From Oscillospiraceae bacterium (GTDB lineage Bacteria > Bacillota_A > Clostridia > Oscillospirales > Oscillospiraceae), in NCBI GenBank assembly GCA_017381835.1, contig JAFOBK010000018.1:1-48829 (forward strand): a stretch of 48,829 bases of DNA. Reading direction: 5' to 3'. A program made the translations under genes and the position numbers. Numbering within the stretch: the first letter of the stretch is position 1; each line of letters starts with the position of its first letter. This document shows positions 752 to 17,746 of this stretch, piece after piece. The notes beneath the pieces were generated by a model that worked only from the letters and a program-made list of their open reading frames with translations, searched no databases and was not told the DNA's origin.

Positions 752-770
752 TCATAGGAGGATACCAATC

Positions 771-2442: not shown

Positions 2443-2460
2443 TCTGATCGGATAAATGAA

Positions 2461-2612: not shown

Positions 2613-2624
2613 AACCCCAATAAA

Positions 2625-2657: not shown

Positions 2658-2669
2658 AGTATTAGGTAA

Positions 2670-2790
2670 ATTGGAATTTGGCGGCGAGTTGCCGCTGACA
2701 ATGCGTGCAAGGTGCATTTGTTTTCGTTACTGCCCTAACCCACTCGGTATCGTTACTGCAGATCAGTTAGACAAATTGGAATTTGTAAAC
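2670..2790 (-). repeat. Hairpin repeat of the 45883-46440 family, inverted divergent copy left of GNAT
   Basis: Read on the minus strand it begins with AATTCCAATTTGTC and ends with TTGTCAGCGGC, a GCGGC/GCCGC hairpin (2681-2695) and CCAAATTCCAATTT, as do the units of the tandem array at 45883-46440. The middle is diverged. It is inverted relative to the copy at 3674-3785 on the other side of the GNAT gene. Together with copy A and the 2625 hairpin it fills the 2492-2795 intergenic stretch. Confidence 0.7.
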
Positions 2791-2795
2791 CTAAA

Positions 2796-3605: not shown

Positions 3606-3673
3606 ATCTATACTCCTTGTTGCTAATATACTTAGGCGACAATAAAAGTGCAGTTCGTATTATGCAAATTCAA

Positions 3674-3785
3674 GTTTATCGAATTCCATACGCCAAGCGG
3701 ATCATAGCGACCGGTCGAGGGGCCCAAAGGATGTCGTTTGACCGACGCAGTCCGTGACGCATTGTCAGCGGCCACTGGCCGCATT
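3674..3785 (+). repeat. Hairpin repeat of the 45883-46440 family, copy right of GNAT
   Basis: Starts with ATCGAATTCCATACGC, carries CATAGCGACCGG like the tandem units, and ends with ATTGTCAGCGGCCACTGGCC, whose GCGGCC/GGCCGC stem lies at 3768-3782. It is in direct orientation to the tandem array and inverted relative to 2670-2790. The stretch 3606-4034 holds no gene I can support: it contains this copy, repeat copy B and a terminator. Confidence 0.75.
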
Positions 3786-3831
3786 ATATCATAGGCACCA
3801 TGTTTTTTCAACGTCCCGGCGTGAAGGCTTT

Positions 3832-3856
3832 CGGCGGGAGCAAGCCCCCGCCCTAC
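3832..3856 (-). repeat. Interspersed GC-rich hairpin repeat, copy B (inverted)
   Basis: Exact reverse complement of the first 25 nt of copy A (2586-2610) and of copy C (39814-39838). With copy A it forms the outer inverted pair around the GNAT gene. Confidence 0.85.
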
Positions 3857-3941
3857 GATTTGCACACATGGCAAGCGGAGCATCCGGCTGTTCACCGGGC
3901 ACAGGCAACCGGGCAGTTGCCCAGACCCACAAAAACAGGAA

Positions 3942-3976
3942 AACTGGCAGGTCAAAACGACCTGCCAGTTGTTTTG
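3942..3976 (-). terminator. Intrinsic terminator downstream of the cupin gene (bidirectional)
   Basis: A 12-bp perfect stem (3942-3953 with 3959-3970, loop AAAAC). On the minus strand it is followed by TTTTCCTGTTTTT, placing it as the end of the cupin transcript; the plus side also has a short T run. Confidence 0.75.
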
Positions 3977-4034
3977 TGCTATTTCTCCGCTAAGAACATC
4001 ACGCTTTTGATACAGAGTTTTTCTAAACAAGAAA

Positions 4035-4382
4035 TCAGATATAAACAATAACAGCGCAAAGCTCTACATCTTCCTGGCCGTTGTTGGCAACGGAGTGACC
4101 GGTACCTGCGGGGCAGAGCATCACATCGCCGGCACTGACCACAGACTCAACACCGTTGTCATTGTAGAGGGCTTCACCCTTCATAACATAGAACAGTTCA
4201 CTGTCCTTTTCGTGTACATGGTAGCCGATGCTGCAACCGGGCTTCAGGGTGATGTTGGCAAACAGGCGGCCCTTATCATTCAGCTCTTCGGGAGTTGCAA
4301 AGTGGGTGATCTCCACGGTGCCGTTGCCGTCACGCATTTTCTCATTGTACACTTTTTTGCAATCTGCTGCTTTTCTGATCAT
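4035..4382 (-). CDS. Cupin-domain protein
   Basis: Small single-domain cupin of 115 residues. Cupin motif 1 is GYHVHEKDSELFYVMKG with metal ligands His55, His57 and Glu62; motif 2 is PAGTGHSVANN with His96. All four metal ligands are present, so a metal-binding beta-barrel enzyme or sensor is expected; the ligand is unknown. Start set by AAGGAGGTC (read on the minus strand, plus 4389-4397). It is a monocistronic gene with its own promoter, divergent from the alcohol dehydrogenase. Confidence 0.85.
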   Translation of the reverse strand: MIRKAADCKKVYNEKMRDGNGTVEITHFATPEELNDKGRLFANITLKPGCSIGYHVHEKDSELFYVMKGEALYNDNGVESVVSAGDVMLCPAGTGHSVANNGQEDVELCAVIVYI

Positions 4383-4410
4383 TTGAATGACCTCCTTATG
4401 TTTTTTCTTT

Positions 4411-4440
4411 ATTATAGCATTGGGTTGCAGGAAAAAACAA
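4411..4440 (-). promoter_or_regulatory. Promoter of the cupin gene
   Basis: On the minus strand TTGTTT (plus 4435-4440), 18-bp spacer, TATAAT (plus 4411-4416), 29 bp upstream of the start codon. Confidence 0.65.
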
Positions 4441-4510
4441 GGACTTTTCTTATGGAGGAAAGGAGAAAAATATGTTATGATAAAGCAAAGACAACAAGGG
4501 AGGAAGCAGA

Positions 4511-5626
4511 ATGAATCTCAATTCTTTTATGCCGGTGAAACTGGTGACCGGTGCAGGCTGCGTGCGGGCCGGTGCAAAGGAACTTTCCAAACTGGGAAAA
4601 TGCTGTTTGGTCGTTACCGGCAAAACATCTGCAAAGGCAAGCGGTGCGCTGCAGGATCTTACCGACACATTGGATGCTAACGGCCAAAAATGGAGCCTCT
4701 TTGATGAAATTGGACAAAATCCCAAGCTCACCGACTGCATGAGAGCGGCAGAGCAGGCAATTGCGGCGGGTGCAGATTTTGTGGTGGGCATCGGCGGCGG
4801 TTCTGCCCTGGATGCGGCTAAGTGTATCGCTGTCCTGGCGGCAAATCCCGGCATGACCCAGACCCAGCTCTATGCCTTTGACTGGGCGAATGCGCCCCTT
4901 AAGATGGTCGGGATAGGCACGACTGCAGGAACCGGCAGTGAAGTCACAAAGGTTTCTGTTATCACCACGCCTGACGGCCGCAAAAAGAGTTTTCATCATG
5001 AGGCAATCTTCCCGGTACTGTCCCTGGGCGATCCTACCTACACCATGTCGGTACCTCCTATGGTAACCCGCAGCACCATGATCGATGTGCTGGCCCACTG
5101 CGCGGAAAGCTTTTTCAGCCGGGCAGCAAATCATATTTCTCAGGCCTATGCGGTGGAAGGTATCCGTCTGTTGCTGCCGGTATTCAGGATGATGGCGGAA
5201 AAGGGCTGTGAGAACCTTAGCTATGAAACCCGGGAAGCGCTCTACTGCGCCTCTATTTACGGCGGCCTGGCCATCAATGTGACCGGCACCTGCTTCCCGC
5301 ACACCATGGGCTATCTGCTGACAGAATCTTTCGGCATTCCCCACGGAACTGCCTGCGCGGTATTCCAGAAAGATTTTTATGAGTATAATAAAGCGGTTGT
5401 TCCGGTGCTTGCGGCAGAGTATCTGGAAAGAATCGGCTGCAGTGAGGAAGAATATTTCCACCTTTTGAAGGAACTGACACCCCCTTGCGAAATTACCATG
5501 AGTGAAGCTCTCATTGCCGAATCCCATAGCCGCTGGGTCAATAACGGAAGCATGGCCAAATGTCAGGGCGTCTTCAGCGCAGACATGGCCGATGAGATTC
5601 TCCGCAGAAAATACCTGAAAAAATAA
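4511..5626 (+). CDS. Iron-containing alcohol dehydrogenase
   Basis: Group III (Fe-dependent) alcohol dehydrogenase of 371 residues. GGGSALDAAK at 95-104 binds the NAD(P) phosphates, TTAGTGSEVT starts at 137, and the four metal ligands expected for the FucO/glycerol dehydrogenase fold can be placed: Asp192 and His196 in IDVLAH, His264 in FPHTMG, His278 in IPHGTA. It would reduce an aldehyde or oxidise an alcohol in the cytoplasm; the substrate cannot be told. GGGAGGAAG at 4498-4506 sets the start. A TATGAT box at 4476-4481 may be its -10 but no good -35 is seen. Confidence 0.9.
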   Translation: MNLNSFMPVKLVTGAGCVRAGAKELSKLGKCCLVVTGKTSAKASGALQDLTDTLDANGQKWSLFDEIGQNPKLTDCMRAAEQAIAAGADFVVGIGGGSALDAAKCIAVLAANPGMTQTQLYAFDWANAPLKMVGIGTTAGTGSEVTKVSVITTPDGRKKSFHHEAIFPVLSLGDPTYTMSVPPMVTRSTMIDVLAHCAESFFSRAANHISQAYAVEGIRLLLPVFRMMAEKGCENLSYETREALYCASIYGGLAINVTGTCFPHTMGYLLTESFGIPHGTACAVFQKDFYEYNKAVVPVLAAEYLERIGCSEEEYFHLLKELTPPCEITMSEALIAESHSRWVNNGSMAKCQGVFSADMADEILRRKYLKK

Positions 5627-5633
5627 AGGGAAA

Positions 5634-5680
5634 CAGCCGCTGACCGTTTGTCGGCGGCTGCTTCTGCATCTTGATTTTTG
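5634..5680 (+). terminator. Probable terminator after the alcohol dehydrogenase
   Basis: CAGCCGC at 5634-5640 pairs with GCGGCTG at 5654-5660; the T-rich tract is delayed to about 5671-5679, so this is a weaker candidate. Confidence 0.45.
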
Positions 5681-5737
5681 GTGTGCGATATGATAATGTC
5701 AAGGTAAGAAAATGCCTGCAGAAAGGAAAGAATCGCC

Positions 5738-6412
5738 ATGAAGGTTTATGATATTACCGGCCCTATCCGGGACGGCATGTGGAACTATGAGCCGCCTTTT
5801 CCCACCTTTCATTTAAAACCCCTGCCCCAGCCGGAATGGGTGAATTCCAGAGTGTACTGCGAGATTTTTGAGGGGATCCATTCCCAGACCGGCACTTACC
5901 TGGAAACGCCTGCTCACTTTTTCGGCAACGACAACTGCTATCTGATGAGCAATGTCCCCGTGGAGAAGCTGGTTTCCATTCCCTGCACCATTCTGATGCT
6001 GCCGGGGCTGGATAAGCCCGGTGAAACCCGCCCCGCCATCACTGCCGAAATGCTGGCAGCCTGCCCCGGTGCGGAGAATATCCAAACCGGCGATGCCATT
6101 TTGGTAGGCACGGGATGGGGAAAATACTGGATGGATGACTGTTATCTGGATGCATCCCCCTATTTTACTTACGATGCCATGAAGTACCTGATGGATAAGA
6201 AGCCTTTCCTTTTGGGTACGGACTTCCCCCGCTGGGAGAGTTTTGAACATCCTCAGAATTTGTTCCCGCTGTTTTACGAAAGCGATGCGCTGATGCTGGC
6301 GCCCCTGGTGAATTTGGAAACCATTCCTGCCAACCGTGCCAAGCTGACGGCGCTGCCCCTGAATATTCCCGGCACCAGCTGCATCCCCTGCCGTGCGGTT
6401 GTTTCGGTGTAA
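5738..6412 (+). CDS. Cyclase-family (kynurenine formamidase-like) protein with altered metal motif
   Basis: A 224-residue member of the cyclase/KynB superfamily (PF04199). The family's metal motif HxGTHxDxPxHF is recognisable at SQTGTYLETPAHFF (about residues 50-63), but the three usual metal ligands His, His, Asp read Gln, Tyr, Glu here, while the last His is kept. It may bind a different metal set or have a new activity. Other family features (DAILVGTGWGKYW; LLGTDFPRWE) are present. First gene of a three-gene operon with an AAC(3)-like protein (15 bp gap) and a TIM-barrel protein. GAAAGGAAAG at 5719-5728 is the ribosome site; a TATGAT box at 5689-5694 may be the -10. Confidence 0.8.
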   Translation: MKVYDITGPIRDGMWNYEPPFPTFHLKPLPQPEWVNSRVYCEIFEGIHSQTGTYLETPAHFFGNDNCYLMSNVPVEKLVSIPCTILMLPGLDKPGETRPAITAEMLAACPGAENIQTGDAILVGTGWGKYWMDDCYLDASPYFTYDAMKYLMDKKPFLLGTDFPRWESFEHPQNLFPLFYESDALMLAPLVNLETIPANRAKLTALPLNIPGTSCIPCRAVVSV

Positions 6413-6427
6413 GAAAGGAAGGAAACC

Positions 6428-7270
6428 ATGATTACAAAACAGGAAATCAAACGCTCCCTGGGACTGATGGGCATTGTTCCCGGCGATACGCTGCTGCTGC
6501 ATAGCGCAATGACCGCCATCGGCGGTGTGGAAGGCAGCGCCGATACGGTGATCGATGCCTTCCTGGAGACCATTGGAGAAGAAGGCACCCTGGTCATGTC
6601 TACCCTGACCGGCTGGTTTGCGCCCTTTGACGCGGCAACTTCCCCCAGCGCTGTGGGTTACTTATCGGAAGTATTTCGCTGCAGACCCGGTGTGCTGCGC
6701 AGCCTGCATCCCGTCCACTCTGTCTGCGCTTACGGCAAGAACGCAGCCTTCATTACAGAAGGCCATGAACACTGCAAAACCGGCTGCGGAGAAGGTACAC
6801 CTTATCTGAAAATCCGGGATTTGGGCGGCAAGGCATTGCTGCTGGGTGTGGATATGGATAGAAATACCGTGATGCACTCCCTGGAAGAGGCCATCGACGC
6901 AAAATACTTGCGCACATTGGAGATCGTGGCTCCTACTTATCTGGAAAACTATCAGGATAGAACCTTCACACTGGAAAAATTCCCTCCCGGCCACAGAGAT
7001 TTTATGATGATTACTCCCTATTTGCGCCGCGCCGGTGCAATAACGGAGGGTAAAATCGGCAAGGCAGTCACCAAATGCATCGATATGCAGAAACTGTTCC
7101 AGGTTGTGATGCCGATGCTGGAGCAGGATCCTCTGCTGTTTATCTGCCACAATGACCATTGCAACTCCTGCCATTGGTCCAGACTCCTTTATACGGATCA
7201 GGAGATCAATATGGATAAGTATAAGGAAAATTGCTGCACCGATGAAACCTGCGAGATCTGCGTGATCTGA
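6428..7270 (+). CDS. AAC(3)-like antibiotic N-acetyltransferase family protein
   Basis: A 280-residue protein of the aminoglycoside 3-N-acetyltransferase fold (PF02522). Recognisable family segments: LLLHSAMTAIGGVEG near residue 22, EGTLVMSTLTGWF, RSLHPVHSVCAYG near 95, GTPYLKI, and DRNTVMHSLEEAID near 143-156 with the His/Glu expected at the active site. The C-terminal ~45 residues are Cys-rich (CHNDHCNSCHW, then CCTDETCEIC), which is unusual for the family and could bind metal. Chromosomal position between a cyclase and a TIM-barrel isomerase argues for a metabolic acyltransfer rather than drug resistance; this is inference. AGGAAGG ribosome site at 6416-6422. Confidence 0.85.
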   Translation: MITKQEIKRSLGLMGIVPGDTLLLHSAMTAIGGVEGSADTVIDAFLETIGEEGTLVMSTLTGWFAPFDAATSPSAVGYLSEVFRCRPGVLRSLHPVHSVCAYGKNAAFITEGHEHCKTGCGEGTPYLKIRDLGGKALLLGVDMDRNTVMHSLEEAIDAKYLRTLEIVAPTYLENYQDRTFTLEKFPPGHRDFMMITPYLRRAGAITEGKIGKAVTKCIDMQKLFQVVMPMLEQDPLLFICHNDHCNSCHWSRLLYTDQEINMDKYKENCCTDETCEICVI

Positions 7271-7291
7271 AGCCGAAAGGAGTTGTGAGCT

Positions 7292-8047
7292 ATGTATCAA
7301 TTCAGTATTGCACCGTCGGATTTTCTGGCACTTGGCTTTGAGCAGAAGCTTGCCCTGTGTGAGGAAACCCGTTGCGGTTATGTGGAGCTTTCCGACATCA
7401 TTGAGGGAACGTTCATCGGTGATATGGACGGGGATGCAATCGAAACCATGCGCGGTCTTCTGATCGACTATGGCAAGATTATCAGCCTGGTTACCTACAC
7501 CGGAAAAATCTCCGATTATGGCCGGTTCCGGGCGCTGCTGCGCAATGCCCATCTGCTGGGTGTGAAGGCCATCAAGGTCAGCTGCGACGGATATGACAGC
7601 CTTCAGGATGCGGCAGCAGATATCACCGAGTGCGCCCAGGATGCAAAGTGCTATGGCATCCGTCTGTGCGTGGAAAACTGCCATGATTCCATTCTCTCCC
7701 GCAATAAGGACATGGAACTGCTGGTAAAGAGCGCAGGTGAGAATGTGTATACCATTTTTAATCCCCTCTGCTATGCCTATATGCGCGCCCATCCCTTCTT
7801 CCATGAATTCTATGGAAGCAAGCTGAAGAATAATATTACATTTCTGCGGGTCAATGACGGCCTGTTTTGCGAGCGCAGACCGGAGCTTCCCGGTCGGGGC
7901 AACGCGGAAATTAAGGAGCTGGCATCCATCCTGCTTTCCCGCTCCTTTGACGGCTGGTTCTCGTTTACCGACTATTTCGGCCAGATGAGCAGGGAGGAAG
8001 TAAAAGAATACATTGCAGCCTTCAAAACCCTGCTGAAGCAAATGTAA
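7292..8047 (+). CDS. Sugar phosphate isomerase/epimerase-like TIM-barrel protein
   Basis: A 251-residue protein of the xylose isomerase-like TIM barrel family (AP endonuclease 2 superfamily, PF01261). Acidic and His residues at the ends of strands are visible: GYVELSD near 28-34, KVSCDGYD, RLCVENCHDS near 127-136, TIFNPLCYAY, FLRVNDG, and a late SFTDYFGQ. The second and fifth are at positions where the family binds divalent metal. Substrate unknown; it is the last gene of the operon beginning at 5738 and ends at a terminator. Start set by AAAGGAG at 7276-7282. Confidence 0.8.
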   Translation: MYQFSIAPSDFLALGFEQKLALCEETRCGYVELSDIIEGTFIGDMDGDAIETMRGLLIDYGKIISLVTYTGKISDYGRFRALLRNAHLLGVKAIKVSCDGYDSLQDAAADITECAQDAKCYGIRLCVENCHDSILSRNKDMELLVKSAGENVYTIFNPLCYAYMRAHPFFHEFYGSKLKNNITFLRVNDGLFCERRPELPGRGNAEIKELASILLSRSFDGWFSFTDYFGQMSREEVKEYIAAFKTLLKQM

Positions 8048-8061
8048 GCACATCAATGATA

Positions 8062-8104
8062 AAAGCCCTGACCACCGCTTGCCGGTAGTCAGGGCTTTGA
8101 CATT
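8062..8104 (+). terminator. Terminator between two convergent operons
   Basis: AAAGCCCTGAC at 8062-8072 pairs with GTCAGGGCTTT at 8088-8098. It follows the TIM-barrel gene and, on the other strand, the FmdE-like gene, and has A/T runs on both sides, so probably serves both. Confidence 0.75.
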
Positions 8105-8106
8105 AT

Positions 8107-8628
8107 TTAGACTTGGAAGCGATCGTAACGGTCAATGCAATCCAGGCACAGCTTCTTGTCGCCTGCCAGGCGGATCCAGTTGGCACCGGTGGATTCACCG
8201 CAGCAATCGCAGGTGTAAGAATCGAACAGCCGTGCCTTTTCAGGCAGCCGGATGGTGGTTTCCTTTACTTCGAACATCTCTTCCGGTTTGCAGGCCTGAT
8301 AGTAGGCAAAGGACTCTGCTTTGGTCATGCCTTCAGGTCTGGGCTTCAGCACCAGCCGGACGGATTTTCCGGTCTTGCGGTTATAGAAGGAGAATGCCTG
8401 CTTGCCCCGCATATGGAACAGAAGGTTGCCCTTGCCGATGCTGCAGCCCAGCAGCACCTGGATGCCGTCAATGCCGCAGGCATCATTTTCTGCGATACAG
8501 ACCACCTGCTCGTCATCGGAAAACTCCAGATTCAGAAGCTCGATGGCATACAGACTTGCCTTATATCCAATGGTGAGACCGCCGCATTCGTGGCCGTGAA
8601 AAGCCACGCAATCCTGCCAGGTTTTCAT
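8107..8628 (-). CDS. FmdE-family protein with C-terminal zinc finger
   Basis: A 173-residue FmdE-like protein (PF02663), named after subunit E of formylmethanofuran dehydrogenase although the organism is not a methanogen. HGHECGG at residues 11-17 gives His/Cys ligands, ENDACGIDGIQ and LLGCSIGKGN follow, and the C-terminus carries a four-Cys zinc finger (CDCC ... CLDC). The biochemical role of bacterial FmdE homologues is not settled; they often sit beside FecBCD-type importers, as here, suggesting handling of the imported metal or metal cofactor. Last gene of the minus-strand operon; 11 bp from the ATPase gene, AGGAGG-type site at plus 8635-8640. Confidence 0.85.
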   Translation of the reverse strand: MKTWQDCVAFHGHECGGLTIGYKASLYAIELLNLEFSDDEQVVCIAENDACGIDGIQVLLGCSIGKGNLLFHMRGKQAFSFYNRKTGKSVRLVLKPRPEGMTKAESFAYYQACKPEEMFEVKETTIRLPEKARLFDSYTCDCCGESTGANWIRLAGDKKLCLDCIDRYDRFQV

Positions 8629-8639
8629 AGACTTCCTCC

Positions 8640-9395
8640 TTATTCTTCCACCAGCACCATGTGCCGGCCTTCAATTTCTACAACTTTTGCATCCACACCG
8701 TAAATGTCTTTCGATGCGGTGCTGTCCAAAATACTGCGGTCACCGTGACGGTAGACCTGACCGTCTTTGAGCAGCAGGAAGCGGTCACAGAAGCGCAGCG
8801 CCAGGTTCAAATCGTGGATCACTACTACAGCGATCATATTGTCCTTATGGCAAAATTCACGCACCATCTTTAATACCTGGTACTGATTCTGAATATCCAG
8901 GGCGCTGGTGGGTTCGTCCAGCAGCAATACCTTTGGCTGCTGTGCCAAAGCTCTTGCCAGCATGACTTTCTGCTTTTCGCCGCCGGAGAGCTGATTTAAG
9001 AATCTTCCCCGCATATCTTCCACATCCAACCGGTGCATGGCATCGTGGACGATTTTGTGATCTTCTTCCGTGAATCCCCATTTCATATAGGGTCTGCGGC
9101 CCAGCATCACCGCATCGTGAACGGTCATCTGCGTGCTGGGAACGCTTTGGGAAACAAAGGCCACGCGTTTGGCAACTTCCCGGGATGACTTCTTTAAAAG
9201 ATCCGCACCGTCCAGAAACACTTCGCCTGCATCGGGTTTCAGAATGTGGTTCAGACATTTCAGAAGGGTACTCTTGCCCACACCGTTGTTGCCTAAAATT
9301 GCCAGGAATGTGCCGGGTTCTACGTCAAAAGACACATCCTTCAGCAGTTCCGGGCAGCCTTTGTAGTGATAGCTGAGATGTTTGATTTGCATCAT
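8640..9395 (-). CDS. ABC importer ATPase, FecE/BtuD type
   Basis: Cytoplasmic ATPase of 251 residues for a type II metal-chelate/vitamin importer. Walker A GNNGVGKST near 35-43, Q-loop in FVSQSVP, signature LSGGEKQKVMLARAL near 137-151, Walker B VLLLDEP near 159-165 and the switch His in VIHDLN. Its start codon overlaps the permease stop by 4 nt, indicating translational coupling. The imported ligand could be a ferric siderophore, a corrinoid or an oxyanion such as molybdate/tungstate; the sequence does not decide. Confidence 0.93.
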   Translation of the reverse strand: MMQIKHLSYHYKGCPELLKDVSFDVEPGTFLAILGNNGVGKSTLLKCLNHILKPDAGEVFLDGADLLKKSSREVAKRVAFVSQSVPSTQMTVHDAVMLGRRPYMKWGFTEEDHKIVHDAMHRLDVEDMRGRFLNQLSGGEKQKVMLARALAQQPKVLLLDEPTSALDIQNQYQVLKMVREFCHKDNMIAVVVIHDLNLALRFCDRFLLLKDGQVYRHGDRSILDSTASKDIYGVDAKVVEIEGRHMVLVEE

Positions 9396-10447
9396 TGCTT
9401 TTTACCTCCTTTGAACAGAAGGTAGAGAAACAGAGGACCACCCAGGAAAGAGGTGATGGCGCCTATGGGCAGAATCACCGGACTGATGACGGTTCTTGCA
9501 AACAGATCACCCAGCAGAAGCAGAGTGGCACCGCCTAAAATTGAGCCGGGGATCAGATACAGATGATTGTTGCCTACCACCATTCGGACGATATGAGGGG
9601 CAACCAAACCGATAAAACTGATCAGACCCACATTGGAAACTACAACGGAGCTGCACAGGCAGCACAGCACCATGCCAACAAGGGTCAGCTGTTTCACATT
9701 GATACCAAGACTGATGGCGGTTTCCTCGCCACTCAAGAGCGCATTATAATCCCACCGGTGGGCAAAGCAGTATACACACAGAATGACAACGATCAATGCC
9801 AAACCGCCAAGGTCATCCCATCCTGTGCTGCCAAGATCGCCAAAGGTCCAAAATACCAGGGTGGAAAGCTGGACTTCATCGGCAAAATACTGGATGAGGG
9901 TGGTGGCACCGGTGAACATGGAACTGATGGCAACACCTGCCAGCACGATGCCCTCCGGAGATACTTGCCGGAATTTGCTTAGTCCCAGGATCACCAGAGC
10001 CACGGCGATGGAACCGAGGAATGCGCACAGAGGAATACCAAAGCGGTCGGTAGCGCCCAGCCCCAGCACCACAATGGCAAAGGCAGCGCCGAAGGTAGCG
10101 CCCTGGGAGACACCCAGGGTAGAGGAGGAGGCCAGGGGATTGCGCAGAACCGCCTGCAGAATGCAGCCGGAAAGACCCAAACCACCGCCGGCAAGGATTG
10201 CCGTGAGGATCCGGGGCAGACGGTTATTGCGTACTACCAGGTTGATTTTCTTGTCAGCGGATATGCCGAAGATGCCTTTCACCAATTCGCCCACGGGGGT
10301 TTCATAGGAGCCGGCACGAAGGCTCAGCAGAATGGTCAGCAGCAGAACACTGCCTAAAATAATGAGAAAACTAACGCTTTTTACCTGGTTTTTTCTGTAT
10401 AGCGGGTCAAAACCCTTATTCTCCAATTTGGATGGGACGGAATTCAT
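9392..10447 (-). CDS. ABC importer permease, FecCD family
   Basis: Polytopic membrane protein of 351 residues with the ten-helix pattern of FecCD/BtuC permeases: first helix around 25-45, family segments NRLPRILTAILAGGGLGLSG and LRNPLASSSTLGVSQGA near 85-125, and the coupling/GLISFIGLVAPHIVR motif near 270-285. Its start overlaps the 3' end of the substrate-binding protein gene by 32 bp; no better internal start was found. Middle gene of the binding protein - permease - ATPase - FmdE operon. Confidence 0.92.
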   Translation of the reverse strand: MNSVPSKLENKGFDPLYRKNQVKSVSFLIILGSVLLLTILLSLRAGSYETPVGELVKGIFGISADKKINLVVRNNRLPRILTAILAGGGLGLSGCILQAVLRNPLASSSTLGVSQGATFGAAFAIVVLGLGATDRFGIPLCAFLGSIAVALVILGLSKFRQVSPEGIVLAGVAISSMFTGATTLIQYFADEVQLSTLVFWTFGDLGSTGWDDLGGLALIVVILCVYCFAHRWDYNALLSGEETAISLGINVKQLTLVGMVLCCLCSSVVVSNVGLISFIGLVAPHIVRMVVGNNHLYLIPGSILGGATLLLLGDLFARTVISPVILPIGAITSFLGGPLFLYLLFKGGKKQ

Positions 10448-11498
10448 AACCGGACTCCTTTAAATCTTCGTAGGGGTTTGCGCCCAGCAGCGTTTCAAAA
10501 ATTTCTCCTGCCTTTGCCACCGGGTCCACATCTGCAAACTGCTGGGGATACAGAATGCAGGCAGCATAATAAGCATCTGCCAATGCGGTGTCCAGGTTGG
10601 AAGCATAGGAACGGAAAGAAATCTGAGAGTATACCTTTCTTTCCTGAACTGCCGTAAGGGCGTGATAATAGTCGGGATTCTTGGCATAGTCTTCGTTGAT
10701 AAGATCCATGCCGTTAAAATCCAGGAAAATGATATCCGGATCCCAGGAAAGCACCTGCTCCAGATCAATGTCAAATGCGCCGCTTTGGCCGGTAGTATCG
10801 GCAAGGTTATTGGCATGGATCAGCTCGAAAGGACCGTATCCGGCCTCTGTGCCTTCAAAACCATGCAGGCCTCGGAAAGAAACACCTGCCACATAAACTG
10901 ACGGCTTGTCGCTATCAGGGATGTTCCCGGTTCTGCTATCCAAGTCTTTCTGAACTGCCTTTAAGTAGGCGGTCAGCTCGTTTGCCCGGTCCTCCATGCT
11001 GTAAAGCTCACCCAGAATGCGGATGGTCTCATAGGCATTGGCATCCAAAGCCTTATCGCTGCCCGGAATCACCACAACCGGTGTGCCGGTCTGTGTCTGC
11101 AGATCATCGGCATCGACATTGGCAGACTTACTCATGACAATTACCTGGGGTGCCACAGCGATGATCTCCTCCGCATAGGGTACTCCGTTGGTACCGGTAA
11201 TGGGAAGATCCTTAAACTTTTCATGGTTCACATAGTTATACAGCCGGTCGATGCCTTTGGTTGCCTCATGCTCTTCTACACCGGCTACCAGATCCGCGGC
11301 ACCCATATAGCAGGTGTAGCGCAGCGCGCCAACACCAACGCAAACAATGGACTCCACTGTTTGCGGCACTTCCACCTGACGGCCTGCGCCATCGGTGATG
11401 ACTTTTCCTTCCGGCGCATTGACTTCCTTTGCACCGCAGCCTGCCAGCAGACCGATACAGATAACGGCTGCCATAATTAAAGCGATTCTTTTCTTCAT
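10416..11498 (-). CDS. ABC importer substrate-binding lipoprotein (FecB/BtuF-like)
   Basis: A 360-residue periplasmic-binding-fold protein anchored as a lipoprotein: MKKRIALIMAAVICIGLLAGC with the lipobox Cys at 21. The body shows the class III binding protein layout: GRQVEVPQTVESIVCVG near 40, a central helix-linked second lobe, and segments such as EEIIAVAPQVIVMS, SWDPDIIFLDFNG near 245-258. The region FRGLHGFEGTEAGYGPFELI probably contributes to the pocket. Ligand not determinable. First gene of the operon, with its own promoter, separated from the cobalamin-riboswitch gene by a terminator, so it need not be B12-regulated despite its location. Confidence 0.88.
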   Translation of the reverse strand: MKKRIALIMAAVICIGLLAGCGAKEVNAPEGKVITDGAGRQVEVPQTVESIVCVGVGALRYTCYMGAADLVAGVEEHEATKGIDRLYNYVNHEKFKDLPITGTNGVPYAEEIIAVAPQVIVMSKSANVDADDLQTQTGTPVVVIPGSDKALDANAYETIRILGELYSMEDRANELTAYLKAVQKDLDSRTGNIPDSDKPSVYVAGVSFRGLHGFEGTEAGYGPFELIHANNLADTTGQSGAFDIDLEQVLSWDPDIIFLDFNGMDLINEDYAKNPDYYHALTAVQERKVYSQISFRSYASNLDTALADAYYAACILYPQQFADVDPVAKAGEIFETLLGANPYEDLKESGYEFRPIQIGE

Positions 11499-11630: not shown

Positions 11631-11996
11631 TTATTCGGGCTTAAAGGTGTAAACAGCGCCTTCTTCCACATTGATGGTATCTACGCCGGTCATGGCATAT
11701 TCACCGTTGACATACACAGCCCAGTACTTGCCGTCGGTGTCCCAATCCAGGGGGATGCCGTTGACGGACTTGATGTACAGACCGTAGTCACCCTGCTCAC
11801 CTTCCAGCAGGCCTTCTGCCTGCAGCGCTTCGCCGACGGTGGCAGCAGTGGTTTTGATCTTATGGGTGGTTTCCACACCGTCCAGGTCTACAGTAATGAC
11901 GGTGAAGGAGGTCTTCTTTGCGCCGCAGGCAGTCATACCGAAAGCCAGGGTGAAGATCAGAAGAAGGGACAGTGCGATTGCGATGATTCTTTTCAT
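11631..11996 (-). CDS. DUF4430 (transcobalamin C-terminal-like) lipoprotein, riboswitch-controlled
   Basis: Start placed at 11996 rather than the longer 12047 because AAGGAGC lies just upstream and the product then begins with a normal signal, MKRIIAIALSLLLIFTLAF, with a lipobox ending in TAC (Cys at about 24). The 121-residue product has a DUF4430 domain (PF14478), the fold of the C-terminal beta domain of eukaryotic transcobalamin and intrinsic factor: TVGEALQAEGLL, then VNGIPLDWDTDGKYWAVYVN, a late VEEGAVYTF. It should be an extracellular, membrane-anchored ligand-capture protein. A cobalamin riboswitch in its leader supports a B12 role (inference). The gene is the only one between its promoter and terminator. 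Confidence 0.85.
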   Translation of the reverse strand: MKRIIAIALSLLLIFTLAFGMTACGAKKTSFTVITVDLDGVETTHKIKTTAATVGEALQAEGLLEGEQGDYGLYIKSVNGIPLDWDTDGKYWAVYVNGEYAMTGVDTINVEEGAVYTFKPE

Positions 11997-12111
11997 TTGG
12001 GATACGCTCCTTTTTATAGAATAGTCCCGTTTGCGGGGGATATCCATGGCGCAGTATTGCCCCGGAGGGGCAATCGCGGAAGAGGGGGACTTCCGGCAAC
12101 CGAAGCAATAA

Positions 12112-12147
12112 AAGCTGCGGTGATCTTAAAAAATCACCGCAGCCGTT
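12112..12147 (-). terminator. Expression-platform terminator of the minus-strand cobalamin riboswitch
   Basis: On the minus strand GGCTGCGGTGAT, loop, ATCACCGCAGC, then TTTTATT. It lies between the aptamer and the gene start at 11996, as expected for a transcription-attenuating B12 riboswitch. Confidence 0.85.
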
Positions 12148-12195
12148 TTTCTGCGTCATAGACCACCAAGTCTGTACGGGCAGAACGGTGTGATT

Positions 12196-12394
12196 ACATA
12201 GTTTAAGCAGTTCTCCTGACTTGCAGATCAGCAGCTCTGTGCAGCCTTCTCGGGACTTGCCCAATGGCTGGCTTTCACCTGACACAGAACCTCATTGCAT
12301 ACAGTGGCGGTACCGTTCGTGATTCTCACACGATTCTCTATTCTCCCATGGGGCTGTGACCGCACCCATAGGCACTTAAACCTATATGAACTTA
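12196..12394 (-). promoter_or_regulatory. Cobalamin riboswitch aptamer (minus strand)
   Basis: Read on the minus strand the conserved B12-riboswitch blocks appear in order: GGTACCGCCACTGTATG (plus 12297-12312), a GCCATTGG block (plus 12261-12268), GAGAAGGC (plus 12244-12251) and AAGTCAGGAGAACTGC (plus about 12203-12223). It is preceded by a promoter and followed by a terminator hairpin before the DUF4430 gene. Boundaries are approximate. Confidence 0.9.
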
Positions 12395-12399
12395 CTGAT

Positions 12400-12428
12400 A
12401 TGGTAGCACCGACATGCTGCGGTGTCAA
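12400..12428 (-). promoter_or_regulatory. Promoter of the minus-strand cobalamin riboswitch
   Basis: On the minus strand TTGACA (plus 12423-12428), 17-bp spacer, TACCAT (plus 12400-12405). Its -35 lies only 10 bp from the -35 of the divergent promoter. Confidence 0.75.
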
Positions 12429-12438
12429 GAAAAAAAGA

Positions 12439-12467
12439 TTGCGGTTTTTACATGAGTGTGATAGTAT
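12439..12467 (+). promoter_or_regulatory. Promoter of the plus-strand cobalamin riboswitch and ECF operon
   Basis: TTGCGG at 12439-12444, 17-bp spacer, TAGTAT at 12462-12467 (an overlapping TATATT at 12465 is an alternative -10). Back to back with the minus-strand promoter. Confidence 0.6.
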
Positions 12468-12479
12468 ATTAAAAAGAGC

Positions 12480-12700
12480 GAAAGCTCATGATATAGCAAA
12501 CAGGATCGTTAGTTTTTGGAATGGGCAGCGCAGGAATTGCGTGTTATCCCAACGGTACCAAGCCGCCGTAGACGGACAAAAAGCCGCTTTTGCCATTGGC
12601 GCAAGCTGAGAAGGCAGAAGCAAGAGGGCGTCCGGAGTCGGAATACGGACTAGCGGTCTGTACGCGGGGCTCTTGGGGGCTGCCTTGCGGATTCTTTGTG
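12480..12700 (+). promoter_or_regulatory. Cobalamin riboswitch aptamer (plus strand)
   Basis: A leader of about 300 nt without a gene holds, in the same order and spacing as the minus-strand riboswitch, ACGGTACCAAGCCGCCGTA (12552-12570), GCCATTGG (12592-12599), GAGAAGGC (12608-12615) and GAGTCGGAATACGGACT (12635-12651). The first block departs from the common GCCACTG. The pattern and the terminator that follows make a cobalamin-class riboswitch likely. Boundaries are approximate. Confidence 0.8.
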
Positions 12701-12733
12701 CTCAGAATCAGCTGAGTCGGTTTTGTGGTTTTG

Positions 12734-12762
12734 AAGCTCCCGGATTCCGGGAGCTTTTTTAT
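12734..12762 (+). terminator. Expression-platform terminator of the plus-strand cobalamin riboswitch
   Basis: AAGCTCCCGGA at 12734-12744 pairs with TCCGGGAGCTT at 12746-12756 (the innermost pairs open to make the loop), followed by TTTTTT. It ends 16 bp before the first gene of the operon. Confidence 0.88.
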
Positions 12763-12777
12763 TTGCAGGAGAGAGCG

Positions 12778-13746
12778 ATGAAAGAACGAAAGAATAGAAT
12801 GTATCGGCTGAGCCTGATTTTCAGTGTGTTTCTACTCTTCTTCACCCTTTGCATGACAGCATGCGCAGGGGACAGCGGAAAACCTACGGAAGCACTTGCG
12901 GCGAAAACAGCCAAAGCGCTAATGAAAAAGGCAGAACCTGCCGGCTCCGATTGGGTGGCCTTTGGCCTTGCCCGGTGGGAAGGCGCGGCTTTGGAAAACT
13001 GGATGGATACCTATCTTTCCGATGCCGAAGCAAGAAGCGCGGACTGCCAGGGTGTATTTCATGAACGCAAATACACGGAAAATGCCAAAGTGATTCTTGC
13101 CTTGACGGCCTTGGGAAAGGATCCCCGGGATGTGGCAGGATTCAATCTGCTGGTACCCCTGGCGGATTTTGAACAGACGGTGTTTCAGGGTGTCAACGGC
13201 GCAGCCTATGCACTGCTGGCCCTGGATAGCGGCAGTTATGAAATCCCTGCCAATGGAGCAGACAGCACCCAGGCGACCCGGGAAATGTATGTGGATTATA
13301 TTCTCAGCAGCCAGTACCCTGACGGAGGTTGGGCACTGTCGGGAGATACTTCCGAAGCGGATCTGACCGCAATGGCGCTGCAGGCTTTGGCCAAGTATCG
13401 GGATCGGGCAGATGTGGAAGAAGCCATCAAGCGGGGTGTGGCATTCTTGTCCGAAAATCAGAATGAAGATGGCGGCTTTACCTATTTTAACGCCCAAACC
13501 TGCGAATCGGTTTCTCAGACGATTCTTGCGCTGACAGAACTGGGGATCTCCCTGGAGGATCCGCGCTTTATCAAAGAAGGAAATACCTTGCAGGATGCCC
13601 TTTTGCGGTTTCGTCAGAAGGACGGCACCTTTGCCCATTTGCTGGATGGGGGGTCGGATATGATTGCCACCGAGCAGGCATTTCTTGCCCTGGTTGCTGC
13701 CGATAGAGCGGAGCAGGGAGAATCTTCTGTATATTGCATGCATTAA
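12778..13746 (+). CDS. Lipoprotein with terpene-cyclase-like alpha-toroid, transcobalamin N-domain-like
   Basis: Start placed at 12778 because AGGAGAG precedes it, the upstream in-frame stretch lies over the riboswitch terminator, and the product then starts with a signal ending in the lipobox TAC (Cys about 23). The 322-residue mature part carries alpha-alpha toroid repeats of the prenyltransferase/squalene oxidase type: SQYPDGGW near 183, NQNEDGGF near 228, RFRQKDGTF near 283, each followed by helices. Intrinsic factor and transcobalamin use this toroid as their N-terminal cobalamin-binding domain; here the next gene supplies the matching C-terminal domain. It likely captures corrinoid at the cell surface for the ECF transporter downstream; function is inferred. 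Confidence 0.8.
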   Translation: MKERKNRMYRLSLIFSVFLLFFTLCMTACAGDSGKPTEALAAKTAKALMKKAEPAGSDWVAFGLARWEGAALENWMDTYLSDAEARSADCQGVFHERKYTENAKVILALTALGKDPRDVAGFNLLVPLADFEQTVFQGVNGAAYALLALDSGSYEIPANGADSTQATREMYVDYILSSQYPDGGWALSGDTSEADLTAMALQALAKYRDRADVEEAIKRGVAFLSENQNEDGGFTYFNAQTCESVSQTILALTELGISLEDPRFIKEGNTLQDALLRFRQKDGTFAHLLDGGSDMIATEQAFLALVAADRAEQGESSVYCMH

Positions 13747-13765
13747 CAATATTTGGAGGCTTTTT

Positions 13766-14281
13766 ATGAAGCGGATTGCAAAGATGATCATTTTGGTGCT
13801 GGCGCTGACCCTGCTCTGGGGCTGCGCAAAGGCAGGCGGCGAGGAGGTTTCCGATACCAATGGTGACGGAAAGCTCAGCTGCACCCTGGAAATCCGGTGC
13901 GATGTGCTTCTGGACAAGCTGGATCAGATGGCGGAAGGAAAGGCTGCTCTGGTGCCGGAAGACGGTGTGCTGCTGCCGGTAACAGAAGTAGCGTTTGAAG
14001 GCGGCGAATCCGTATTTGATGTGTTTCGGAAAGTTCTTCGGGAAGAAAAGATCCATTTTGAATATGTGGATGCCACGGCCTACAGCACAGCCTATGTGGA
14101 AGGCATCGGAAATCTATACGAGTTTGACTGCGGTTCCCGCTCCGGCTGGGTATTCAGCGTCAACGGTGTCCATCAGGGAATCGGCTGTTCTGCCTATACC
14201 CTGGCAGACGGCGATGTGATCGTATTTAACTACACCTGCGACCTGGGCGCCGATGCAGGCGCGGAGACAGTTTATGAATAA
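13766..14281 (+). CDS. DUF4430 lipoprotein, transcobalamin C-domain-like
   Basis: Start at 13766 is set by TTGGAGGC; an upstream in-frame start would overlap the toroid gene without a ribosome site. The 171-residue product begins with MKRIAKMIILVLALTLLWGC (lipobox Cys20). The C-terminal ~100 residues are DUF4430: SVFDVFRKVLREEKI, YEFDCGSRSGWVFSVNGVHQ, TLADGDVIVFNY. It is the second half of a split transcobalamin-like pair and a paralogue of the solo DUF4430 gene at 11631. Its stop overlaps the EcfT start by 8 bp, so it is coupled to the transporter. Confidence 0.85.
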   Translation: MKRIAKMIILVLALTLLWGCAKAGGEEVSDTNGDGKLSCTLEIRCDVLLDKLDQMAEGKAALVPEDGVLLPVTEVAFEGGESVFDVFRKVLREEKIHFEYVDATAYSTAYVEGIGNLYEFDCGSRSGWVFSVNGVHQGIGCSAYTLADGDVIVFNYTCDLGADAGAETVYE

Positions 14282-15158
14282 GGATACCTTTTCCGGATTT
14301 CACCCGGCGGTGAATCTGGCCTTTTTCGCAGCAGCCCTGGGCATGACCATGTTCATACTGCAGCCGGTGTACCTGCTGATCTCTTTTGTCAGCGCCTGCG
14401 CTTACTTGCTTTATTTGCAGGGGAAAAAGGGCATGCTGCGGCAGGTGGGATATCTGGTGCCGCTGCTCATTCTGATGGCAATCTTGAACCCGCTGTTCAA
14501 TCATGAGGGTACGACGGTGCTGTGGTATCTTCCTAACGATAACCCCATTACACTGGAAGCGGTTTGCTTTGGCCTGGCTTCTGCTGCGATGATGGGCGCA
14601 TCCATTGTGTGGTTTAACTGCTGCAATACGGTCTTTACTTCCGATAAGATCATCTACCTCTTTGGACGGGTGATTCCGGCGCTGTCGCTGCTGGTTTCCA
14701 TGACAATGCGGTTTGTGCCCCGGTTCAAGAACTTCCTGCAGAGTGTGCTGCAGACCCAGAAAGCGATGCACAAGCCGGAGAATGCAAAAGAAAAATTGCA
14801 GCAGGCGCTGTCTGCCTTTTCGGCTACCGTCAGCTGGGCAATGGAGCAATCCATTGTATCCGCAGATTCTATGAAAAGCCGTGGCTATGGCATGGGCGGA
14901 AGAACGGCATTTTCTATTTATCTTTTTGAAAAACGGGACGGTATCGTTCTGGGACTGCTGGCGCTGCTGTGCTTAGGTGCAGCGGTTCCCAATCTTATGG
15001 GCCTGATAGAGTGGAATTACTATCCCGGCATGACCGGCCAGCTGCTTGGCCCGGTGCAGATTTTGGCATACATTTGCTATGGCGGTATGTGCAGCCTGCC
15101 GTTGATCATCGATTTCGTGGAGGATCGTAAATGGAACGCATTAAGATCCAAAATTTAA
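14274..15158 (+). CDS. ECF transporter transmembrane component (EcfT/CbiQ family)
   Basis: Integral membrane scaffold of 294 residues that links ATPases to the substrate-binding S component. Hydrophobic helices at about 13-50, 62-80, 96-118 and near the C-terminus. The conserved coupling region is visible as SADSMKSRGYGMGGRTAF near residues 197-214, matching the S-x-x-A/S-R-G pattern of EcfT. Start at 14274 (overlapping the previous stop) preferred over 14253, which has no ribosome site. It overlaps the fused ATPase gene by 28 bp. Co-transcribed with transcobalamin-like lipoproteins behind a cobalamin riboswitch, so a corrinoid importer. Confidence 0.88.
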   Translation: MNKDTFSGFHPAVNLAFFAAALGMTMFILQPVYLLISFVSACAYLLYLQGKKGMLRQVGYLVPLLILMAILNPLFNHEGTTVLWYLPNDNPITLEAVCFGLASAAMMGASIVWFNCCNTVFTSDKIIYLFGRVIPALSLLVSMTMRFVPRFKNFLQSVLQTQKAMHKPENAKEKLQQALSAFSATVSWAMEQSIVSADSMKSRGYGMGGRTAFSIYLFEKRDGIVLGLLALLCLGAAVPNLMGLIEWNYYPGMTGQLLGPVQILAYICYGGMCSLPLIIDFVEDRKWNALRSKI

Positions 15159-17746
15159 CATTTACTTACCCGGAGCAGGAAATTCCCGCCCTCCGGGGCG
15201 TTTCCATGGCATTACATCCCGGTGATTTCGCTGTGCTGGCAGGCCCTTCCGGCTGCGGTAAGTCCACCATGCTGCGGCAGCTGAAAACGGTGCTTGCGCC
15301 CCATGGCAAAAAGGAGGGCACGATCCTTTTTAACGGTACTCCCCTGGAGGAAGTGGACAACCGTACCCAGTCTGCCAAGATCGGTTTTGTGCTGCAGGAT
15401 CCCGACAGTCAGATCGTCACCGACAAGGTGTGGCACGAACTGGCTTTCGGCCTGGAAAGCCTGGGTGTGGACAATACCACCATTCGGGGCAGAGTCGCGG
15501 AGATGGCCAGCTTTTTTGGTATTCAGACCTGGTTCCACAAGTCGGTGGACCAGCTCTCCGGCGGTCAGAAACAGCTGCTGAATTTGGCATCCATTATGGT
15601 GCTGCAGCCGGATATGCTGATCCTGGATGAACCCACCAGCCAGCTGGATCCCATTGCGGCTACGGACTTTTTGCAGACCCTGGGCCGTATCAATCGGGAA
15701 CTGGGTACTACCATCCTGATCTGTGAGCACCGGCTGGAGGATGTGATCCCTATGGCAAACCGGCTGCTGATTCTGGATCATGGTGTGCTGATTGCCGACA
15801 ATCCTCCGGTGGAAACCTTTGAAATCCTGAGAAACCGGAAGCACCCCATGCTCCATGCGATGCCCACACCCATGCGGATTTGGAGTACGCTCAACTGGAG
15901 TACAGCCTGCCCTATGACGGTCAGCGACGGAAGAAATCAGCTGACCCAGTGGGCAGAATGCAATAGCCTTACCCAACCCCCGGAGCGGCCTGCCAAGGAA
16001 CCGGAGAATGATCCCATTATTATGCTGGATGAGGTGTGGTTCCGGTACGAAAAGGATGCACCGGATGTTTTGAAGGGTGTGTCTATGAAGGCCTATCCCG
16101 GAGAACTGCTGTGTATTTTGGGCGGTAACGGTACCGGCAAAAGTACCACCCTTTCTGTCCTCAGCGGCATTCGGAAACCCTATCGGGGCAAGATGCTCTG
16201 CAAGACGAAAAAAGTCACAGCCCTGCCCCAAAATCCCCAGATGCTGCTGGTGAAGAAAAATGTAAGAGAAGAACTGTGTTCTGCATTCCCCGGCAAAAAG
16301 CTTGCTGAAGCGGCGGACAGAATCGGGGAAATGGCAGCCCTCTGCCGGTTGGAAGGTCTGCTGGACCGTCATCCTTATGATCTGTCCGGCGGTGAGCAGC
16401 AGCGGGCAGCCTTGGCAAAGGTATTGCTCCAGGATCCTGAAGTGCTGCTGCTGGACGAACCCACCAAGGGCCTGGACAGCGATTTCAAGATCACCTTTGC
16501 GGGGATTTTAAAAGAACTGACAGACCGGGGCGTGTGTGTCATCATGGTCAGCCATGATGTGGAGTTCTGCGCCCGGTATGCAGACCGCTGCGGTCTGTTC
16601 TTTGACGGCGGCATTGTCACCATGGATGCCCCGCAGCCTTTCTTTGCGGGCAAGAGCTTCTATACAACTGCCGCGAACCGAATGGCAAGACATCTGCTGC
16701 CCAATGCGGTAACGCCGGAGGATGTGATCCTTGCCTGCGGTGGGGAAGTGCCTGAGCAGGAAGCACCTAAGCGCCCTGATAAGATCAATATTGAACCGCC
16801 GGAAGAGAGAAAACCGCAAAAATTGCCGCTGTGGCGAAAGCTTTTGGGTATGGTTAGCGGTTTGACTTTCTTCGGTATGCTTCTTTATACCTCCCTGGCT
16901 CTGGATTTAAGCACTCTCTACAAGGGTGGCAACTTTATGAAGGAGTACGGCTGGCTGTATATTGTGATGTTCCTGTCCTTTGGAATTTTCACGGCTTGCA
17001 TCAGCCGAAAATCCTCTGTGCGGGAGCAGAAGCTGATGTCAGGGAAACTCAGCACCCGTACCAAAATTATGTTGGTTCTTTCTTTACTGTTGATCCCTCT
17101 GACTATTTGGGCAGGACTCCAATGGGACGGCGGCCGGAAGTACATGGTTATTTCTTTGGCCATCATTTTTGAAACCATGCTGCCTTTCTTCCTGATTTTT
17201 GAGGGAAGAAAACCCCAGGCAAGAGAACTGGTGATTCTGTCGGTTCTCAGCGCTCTGGCCATCGGCGGCAGAGCGGTCTTCTTTGCGCTGCCGGGCTTCA
17301 AACCGGTGGCGGCGATGGTGATTCTGACCGGTGTTGCCTTTGGCCCGGAAGCGGGCTTTATGGTGGGCACCATGACCATGTTCTGCTCCAATGTGCTCTT
17401 TGGACAAGGCCCCTGGACACCCTGGCAGATGTTTGCCATCGGAATCATTGGTCTGCTTTCCGGTGTTTTGTTCCGCAAAGGCCTTTTGCACCGTGACCGT
17501 TTCTCATTGTGCGCCTTTGGCGGGTTGGCCATCTTTCTGATCTATGGCGGCATTATGAATCCGGCATCGATTCTGATGTATCAGCCGAATCCCACCTGGA
17601 AGATGATCCTCACGGCCTGCATTACCGGTGTACCCGCCGACGCGATTCATGCCCTGGCGACGGTGCTGTTTCTGTGGTTCCTGTCGGAACCTATGCTGGA
17701 AAAACTGGACAGAGTGAAAGTCAAATACGGCCTGATGGAGAAATGA
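15131..17746 (+). CDS. Fused EcfA-EcfA ATPases plus membrane S component, probable cobalamin ECF importer
   Basis: One polypeptide of 871 residues holding three ECF modules. ATPase 1: Walker A GPSGCGKST 38-46, Q89, LSGGQ 142-146, DE 166-167. ATPase 2: GGNGTGKST 331-339, Q367, LSGGE 418-422, DE 442-443. A Pro/Glu/Lys linker (about 535-568) leads to a membrane part of roughly ten helices (about 572-855). Its second half (ARELVILSVLSALAIGG at 697-713, GFKPVAAMVILTG, SNVLFGQGPWTPWQM at 753-767) is typical of S components of the CbrT-like group. Most ECF systems encode these as separate proteins. GGAGG at 15118-15122 precedes the ATG. Cobalamin as substrate is inferred from the riboswitch and lipoproteins. 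Confidence 0.88.
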   Translation: MERIKIQNLTFTYPEQEIPALRGVSMALHPGDFAVLAGPSGCGKSTMLRQLKTVLAPHGKKEGTILFNGTPLEEVDNRTQSAKIGFVLQDPDSQIVTDKVWHELAFGLESLGVDNTTIRGRVAEMASFFGIQTWFHKSVDQLSGGQKQLLNLASIMVLQPDMLILDEPTSQLDPIAATDFLQTLGRINRELGTTILICEHRLEDVIPMANRLLILDHGVLIADNPPVETFEILRNRKHPMLHAMPTPMRIWSTLNWSTACPMTVSDGRNQLTQWAECNSLTQPPERPAKEPENDPIIMLDEVWFRYEKDAPDVLKGVSMKAYPGELLCILGGNGTGKSTTLSVLSGIRKPYRGKMLCKTKKVTALPQNPQMLLVKKNVREELCSAFPGKKLAEAADRIGEMAALCRLEGLLDRHPYDLSGGEQQRAALAKVLLQDPEVLLLDEPTKGLDSDFKITFAGILKELTDRGVCVIMVSHDVEFCARYADRCGLFFDGGIVTMDAPQPFFAGKSFYTTAANRMARHLLPNAVTPEDVILACGGEVPEQEAPKRPDKINIEPPEERKPQKLPLWRKLLGMVSGLTFFGMLLYTSLALDLSTLYKGGNFMKEYGWLYIVMFLSFGIFTACISRKSSVREQKLMSGKLSTRTKIMLVLSLLLIPLTIWAGLQWDGGRKYMVISLAIIFETMLPFFLIFEGRKPQARELVILSVLSALAIGGRAVFFALPGFKPVAAMVILTGVAFGPEAGFMVGTMTMFCSNVLFGQGPWTPWQMFAIGIIGLLSGVLFRKGLLHRDRFSLCAFGGLAIFLIYGGIMNPASILMYQPNPTWKMILTACITGVPADAIHALATVLFLWFLSEPMLEKLDRVKVKYGLMEK

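Follow-up and report, generated by a model that had tools for sequence, protein, structure and literature searches.

A putative split corrinoid clamp encoded with a CbrT-like energy-coupling factor transporter behind a variant cobalamin-class riboswitch in an Oscillospiraceae bacterium

An operon on the forward strand of a 48,829-nucleotide stretch of DNA from an Oscillospiraceae bacterium (contig JAFOBK010000018.1, assembly GCA_017381835.1; the whole stretch is referred to as the window) encodes two consecutive lipoproteins, an alpha/alpha-toroid protein and a DUF4430 (beta-grasp) protein, followed by the energy-coupling factor (ECF) transporter component EcfT and an EcfA-EcfA-S fusion (Table 1). 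We consider it likely that this operon takes up a corrinoid (vitamin B12 or a precursor) by means of a transcobalamin-like clamp made of the two lipoproteins and a CbrT-like S-component, under the control of a variant riboswitch. Uptake of a corrinoid is well supported by the sequence comparisons presented here. If the proposal is correct, a transcobalamin-type surface clamp working with an ECF transporter becomes available as a testable protein set and would provide the bacterial equivalent of animal B12 carriers that Burroughs et al. 2007 postulated. The split and fused forms present in close relatives would render the clamp testable half by half, and the variant riboswitch, a small RNA with covariation, lends itself to ligand measurements.

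The list of open reading frames (ORFs) and Pfam searches define two divergent transcripts at 11.6-17.7 kb of the window. On the + strand, the toroid and DUF4430 genes are separated by a gap of 19 bases, followed by overlaps of 8 bases between DUF4430 and EcfT and of 28 bases between EcfT and the EcfA-EcfA-S gene. With EcfT, two EcfA ATPases, in which P-loop and signature motifs were recognized by reading of the sequence, and an S-component, all parts of an ECF transporter are present in this operon. Every domain that a sequence-only reading of this DNA had named, including that of a second, divergently encoded DUF4430 lipoprotein, is supported by Pfam.

Conservation of the gene set was surveyed in loci obtained by scanning species genomes with the DUF4430 protein, using the best 80 of 136 relatives (designated by L numbers). 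The toroid ORF lies directly upstream of the DUF4430 ORF in 69 loci, is fused to it in one, is located farther away in three, and was not seen in seven, two of which sit at a contig start. Allowing for gene overlap, EcfT directly follows DUF4430 in 64 of the 80 loci, and EcfT, EcfA and S are all found downstream in 55; where both ends were readable, EcfA-A-S constitutes a single ORF in 50 of 55 loci and is separate in five. Adjacency of the toroid in 69 and of EcfT in 64 of 80 loci implies that this gene set did not come together by chance. Furthermore, several relatives encode far longer single-chain proteins containing both toroid and DUF4430 further upstream in the gene row. Consistent occurrence of the pair with a non-corrinoid transporter, named beforehand as a finding that would speak against the proposal, was not observed: EcfT is not adjacent in 14 loci that have room downstream, and in 10 of these, whose first few downstream ORFs were read by eye in all 14, the pair is preceded by a cobalamin riboswitch.

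Cooperation of the two lipoproteins is suggested by a natural toroid-DUF4430 fusion in L008, which lacks the second signal peptide and directly precedes EcfT and EcfA-A-S. Such fusions were found in at least 120 protein clusters, and fused relatives, one of which is 425 residues long, keep the domain order of transcobalamin with the toroid first. A model of a fused chain (predicted local distance difference test score, pLDDT, 91.2; predicted template modelling score, pTM, 0.75) was compared to 350,542 PDB chains using Foldseek. All of the top ten matches (E 4e-10 to 2e-7) were chains of transcobalamin, intrinsic factor or haptocorrin, and the match after these scored 6e-4. Among the features of the transcobalamin family, the window has the N-terminal alpha/alpha toroid and the DUF4430-type beta-grasp domain, PF14478 being above its cut-off in both window proteins. 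The toroid and DUF4430 domains are encoded by two genes rather than as a single chain with the toroid first, which is why we do not assign the pair to this family. The split pair probably works like a transcobalamin-family protein.

Within the DUF4430 lipoprotein of the operon, Cys 39, 45 and 122 are conserved in 17 of 17 aligned relatives, and Cys 141, Cys 158 and His97 in 16 of 17, while His287 of the toroid is present in 21 of 21. It is possible that these residues form disulfides or act as axial cobalt ligands.

The S domain links the transporter to corrinoids. When a profile built from 28 S domains was run against all PDB sequences, CbrT (6fnp_A) was the top match with 64 bits (1e-16), and RibU (1.7e-3, 21 bits) and 4hzu_S (3.4e-3) were the runners-up. 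This difference, 64 versus 21 bits for the next match, places the S-component with the CbrT kind.

Both transcripts were proposed from the sequence alone to start with cobalamin-class riboswitches. The - strand element exceeds the gathering threshold of RF00174 (89.2 versus 31.5 bits). The + strand leader received no Rfam call, neither at the gathering threshold nor up to E 5, and was accordingly rejected as an Rfam member. Since Rfam gave no call, a covariance model (R1) was built from 11 cobalamin riboswitches, comprising the - strand element of the window and ten leaders of related operons. R1 matched 12523-12656 on the + strand with 34 bits and an E-value of 2.5e-7 over the whole window, the next match having an E-value of 1.2; without filters, the match extended to 12508-12656 (36 bits). 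A second model made from five variants (R2) assigned 141 bits to the same element, a score that is not independent because the window is one of its five training rows, while the R1 match on the + strand is independent. The leader also folds better than expected (z -2.98; 3 of 200 shuffles as good). Together, the RF00174 call on the - strand and the R1 match, fold and terminator-like hairpin on the + strand indicate that both transcripts start with a cobalamin-class riboswitch, a canonical one on the - strand and a short variant on the + strand.

In the relatives, RF00174 matches precede the first toroid or DUF4430 ORF in seven of seven loci rescanned in their own coordinates and in seven of eight more. 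RF00174 and R1 combined detected a cobalamin riboswitch at the operon start (-150 to +600 bases) in 36 of 62 uncut loci, 10 of these 36 being R1 training rows first found with RF00174; a further 18 loci, in which a contig end cuts the operon start, were left out. These counts derive from direct scans only, and L073 was dropped because its carried-over position did not align. All 35 R1 matches in the leaders of relatives are on the sense strand. Moreover, cobT, cobU, cobS and cobC adjoin the operon in L003, L004 and L009, and cobT, cobS and cobC in L005. The CbrT-like S-component, the cobalamin-class riboswitches and these cob neighbours all support the proposed corrinoid specificity.

The variant recurs in relatives. 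L111, L113, L115 and L117 share the divergent arrangement of two riboswitches seen in the window, with a canonical-type element before the solo DUF4430 gene and, back to back with it, the short variant before EcfT. Searching 199 genomes related to one of the variants, R2 yielded 45 matches of at least 94 bits in 42 genomes and nothing else above 32 bits; a search from another centre returned the identical set. Across the class it gave weak matches only, which came from 8 of 291 genomes and reached at most 39 bits, and the variant therefore looks restricted to one group. R1 also finds the variants in relatives. Rfam calls two of 20 variants (L139 and L142), with the other 18 below threshold. 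In 15 of the 20 variant loci it identifies a cobalamin riboswitch distinct from the variant, and in 14 the two are divergent. Downstream of 44 variants, including that of the window, lie an ECF row in 40 cases, cobT-U-S(-C) directly in three, and a contig end in one, so that ECF or cobT operons follow in 43 of 43 readable places. Only in the window is the toroid the first gene after the variant.

Base pairing of the variant is supported by an alignment of 42 of the 44, from which the near-duplicates L177 and L180 were left out; the duplicate places G396:C52 and G435:C26 lie outside the set. Using a structure read from the aligned sequence L113, a choice that favours the result, 90.2% of the cells are paired compared to 28.9-47.4% when the structure is slid along the alignment. 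Changes on both sides occur in 22 of 38 pairs, and the covariation score of 0.333 was not reached in any of 500 shuffles (mean 0.128). The outer stem and helix 7 are paired in 71% and 82% of the cells, respectively, and the sequence core is nearly invariant. The hairpin that corresponds to the L5-bearing one of canonical elements is closed by an NAAA-type loop of 4-5 bases where canonical relatives have GUGAGAAU, and the variant of the window carries an 18-base insertion at this place. Canonical cobalamin riboswitches are described as signalling via an L5-L13 kissing loop in the available parts of two reports (PMC9600662, PMC10653944). Since the L5 loop of the variant is short, the variant may signal or select differently.

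A number of observations weigh against the proposed uptake system. The fused-chain model, made without ligand, does not reproduce the domain orientation of transcobalamin (TM-score 0.32-0.44; root-mean-square deviation 23-24.5 A over both domains, each of which aligns singly). Of the clamp with two halves, the cooperation of toroid and DUF4430 is supported by the L008 fusion and the Foldseek top ten, and the transcobalamin domain arrangement is not reproduced in the model. The toroid modelled alone by AlphaFold2 (pLDDT 91.8, pTM 0.85) matches class II terpene cyclases better, with the first transcobalamin at rank 16. Profiles of DUF4430, the toroid and the fusion did not find transcobalamin or intrinsic factor in PDB to E 10. 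No riboswitch was detected at the operon start in 26 of the 62 loci, including all six of the nearest relatives scanned (L001-L004, L007 and L009), and no cob gene is in view beside the window's own operon. Finally, of the ORFs at these loci, the lipobox pattern was found in only 13 of the 69 with a toroid alone and in 17 of the 103 with DUF4430 alone, where ORF starts are uncurated and several distant ORFs have a plain N-terminal membrane segment.

Kinship with transcobalamin at the sequence level was rejected on the basis of the three profile searches. The 50 matches listed by VIA-align for the fused model were all toroid matches, mostly over model residues 22-283, with no transcobalamin among them.

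The missing transcobalamin orientation would be explained if corrinoid uptake is right and joint closure is not, each protein binding alone or DUF4430 docking the toroid to the transporter, with the likeness to transcobalamin confined to the domains. DUF4430 proteins without a neighbouring toroid exist, namely the solo protein of the window and those of five loci with none found upstream, and DUF4430 is the first gene in eight of 44 variant-led operons. However, adjacency of the genes in 69 of 80 loci and their fusion in the transcobalamin domain order argue for joint action, and we regard this alternative as unlikely. It is also quite unlikely that the ECF unit imports another corrinoid-linked substrate, such as a lower-ligand base, alpha-ribazole, cobalt or riboflavin: Pfam labels 28 of 28 S domains ECF-ribofla_trS and the cobT neighbours would fit a lower-ligand precursor too, but the S profile prefers CbrT (64 bits) to RibU (21 bits), and a toroid with a transcobalamin-like partner would suit a large ligand. 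DxDD is the motif of class II cyclases; a secreted terpene cyclase or polysaccharide-active enzyme standing beside DUF4430 and ECF genes incidentally, as the best Pfam, sequence and fold matches of the toroid to squalene and drimenyl cyclases might suggest, is very improbable given that DxDD occurs in none of 120 homologues among the matches listed and in one of 69 toroid-only ORFs, that 109 of those 120 homologues have a lipobox, and given the gene order and riboswitches.

In the clamp mechanism that we favour, the toroid and DUF4430 lipoproteins would form two halves outside the membrane, at its surface, the toroid serving as a cup and DUF4430 closing over the corrinoid. The closed clamp would then unload its corrinoid onto the S domain, for which kinship with CbrT was found. 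Covalently joined to two ATPases, S would import the corrinoid together with EcfT, driven by EcfT and the ATPases. The covarying variant riboswitch and the terminator would control synthesis, presumably with a corrinoid as ligand and with low corrinoid raising expression. The divergent operon under the canonical cobalamin riboswitch encodes an importer of the BtuFCD type and also a third beta-grasp lipoprotein.

Animal transcobalamin, intrinsic factor and haptocorrin likewise combine a toroid with a DUF4430-type beta-grasp domain, in the same order as the fused relatives, whereas the window has two separate lipoproteins and no sequence-profile match to them, and the model of the fused chain does not reproduce their domain orientation. 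Burroughs et al. 2007 (PMC1796856), as far as the available part of that paper goes, named the superfamily and described bacterial toroid-SLBB fusions, stand-alone and second paralogous SLBB proteins, and CbiO and CbiQ in the same operons. Both scavenging of B12 or its precursors and descent of the animal proteins from such bacteria were proposed there. The bacterial proteins of that study resemble those of the window in being toroid and SLBB (DUF4430) surface proteins in an operon with a CbiO-like ATPase and a CbiQ-like protein, and the core prediction, that toroid/DUF4430 proteins encoded next to CbiO/CbiQ scavenge B12, is already made there. That part of the paper mentions neither a split lipoprotein pair nor fusion of a CbrT-like S to ATPases nor control by riboswitches. 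ECF-CbrT of Lactobacillus delbrueckii is a transporter of cobalamin and cobinamide (PMC5997447; PDB 6FNP) whose S-component is kin to that of the window; according to the part of the report at hand, CbrT shares its ECF module with other S-components, whereas in the window S forms one chain with both ATPases and is accompanied by an EcfT and surface proteins of its own. Compared to RF00174, to which the - strand element belongs without reservation, the + strand variant shares core alignment and fold but stays below the Rfam threshold and has the short NAAA-type hairpin loop. In the open-licence literature we found neither the variant riboswitch nor a split pair accompanied by a CbrT-like S in one chain with its ATPases. 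The division into two lipoproteins, the fusion of a CbrT-like S to its ATPases and the covarying riboswitch variant look like the new elements.

A tentative and somewhat unlikely extension sees in the operon a salvage line for incomplete corrinoids, leading from the clamp to the ATPase-fused CbrT-like S. ECF and cobTUSC operons would be governed by a separate riboswitch subclass with truncated L5 that senses, for example, cobinamide and perhaps switches on, and the canonical riboswitch and BtuFCD would handle finished cobamides. Under this extension, Cys 39, 45 or 122 or His97 of DUF4430, or His287 of the toroid, might be axial cobalt ligands. In Alkalihalobacillus halodurans, a corrinoid riboswitch before cobT is activated by cobinamide (PMC10653944, seen in part); that element keeps the kissing loop and is likened to the variant by description only.

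The - transcript continues beyond the solo DUF4430 gene, the furthest point of the earlier reading, into a row at 8107-11498 that encodes a BtuF-FecCD-ATP-binding cassette (ABC) importer and an FmdE-like protein. Binding protein, FecCD permease and ABC ATPase lie in one row, as in BtuFCD systems. None of its proteins reached an NCBIfam equivalog cut-off, and the assignment of its substrate therefore rests on the canonical riboswitch.

Table 1. Features of the two divergent transcripts, in window coordinates.
Feature	Position	Strand	Evidence
Alpha/alpha-toroid lipoprotein, 322 aa	12778..13746	+	MTAC lipobox, Cys29; SQHop_cyclase_C 1.8e-9, Prenyltrans 1.5e-7 (Pfam)
DUF4430 (beta-grasp) lipoprotein, 171 aa	13766..14281	+	PF14478 1.1e-15
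EcfT (CbiQ-type) membrane component	ORF 14253..15158, probable ATG 14274	+	CbiQ 9e-7
EcfA-EcfA-S fusion, 871 aa	15131..17746	+	Two ABC domains (Pfam)
S domain of EcfA-EcfA-S	16811..17746, from about residue 560	+	Profile versus PDB
Variant cobalamin-class riboswitch before ECF operon	12501..12659	+	R1 and R2 models, covariation, folding z
Terminator-like hairpin and T run, between variant riboswitch and toroid gene	12733..12757	+	
Canonical cobalamin riboswitch RF00174	12190..12394	-	89.2 bits
Solo DUF4430 lipoprotein, 121 aa	11631..11996	-	PF14478 7.4e-10; PDB 3u7z 7.4e-10
BtuF-type substrate-binding lipoprotein	10416..11498	-	Peripla_BP_2 3.4e-17
FecCD/BtuC-type permease	9392..10447	-	PF01032 8.1e-90; best NCBIfam model BtuC, under its cut-off
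ABC ATPase (BtuD/heme type)	8640..9395	-	PF00005 3.4e-37
FmdE-family protein, last in - strand gene row	8107..8628	-	PF02663 4.5e-32

The sequence-only reading put forward the solo DUF4430 protein as a possible alternative lid of the clamp. Of 60 related genomes, 43 encode homologues of this protein. An EcfT match lies nearby on the opposite strand in seven of 12 solo loci, and the solo gene is the nearest divergent match at 15 of the 44 variant-riboswitch places. It is the first gene of the BtuFCD row in the window and divergent from ECF rows elsewhere. L105 and L106 show an open frame with a tandem array of two or three DUF4430 domains of the solo type.

In the closest relatives (L001-L005, L007 and L009), Rfam and R1 (to E 0.1) found no canonical riboswitch immediately ahead of the split pair, and the pair comes after a long dockerin-like ORF. 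According to their translations, ORFs upstream of the toroid in L001, L003, L004 and L007 (about 1-8900) resemble a MoxR ATPase, DUF58 and a transglutaminase-like protein, followed by a surface protein of 1515-1531 residues with dockerin-like repeats. L088 (1-11000), from the genome of L003, contains a BtuF (74% identical) beside a strong cobalamin riboswitch and, near it, a second, paralogous DUF4430-EcfT-EcfA-EcfA-S row.

Close relatives have genomic rows of two or three cobalamin riboswitches that share a strand and span about 1.6 kb or less (L081, 10826-12193; L082, 4170-5714; L083, 9800-11308). Elsewhere on the - strand of the window, at 35643-36981 and 31778-32595, a tetrahydrofolate and a thiamine pyrophosphate riboswitch, respectively, are each followed by what reads like the gene of a solitary ECF S-component.

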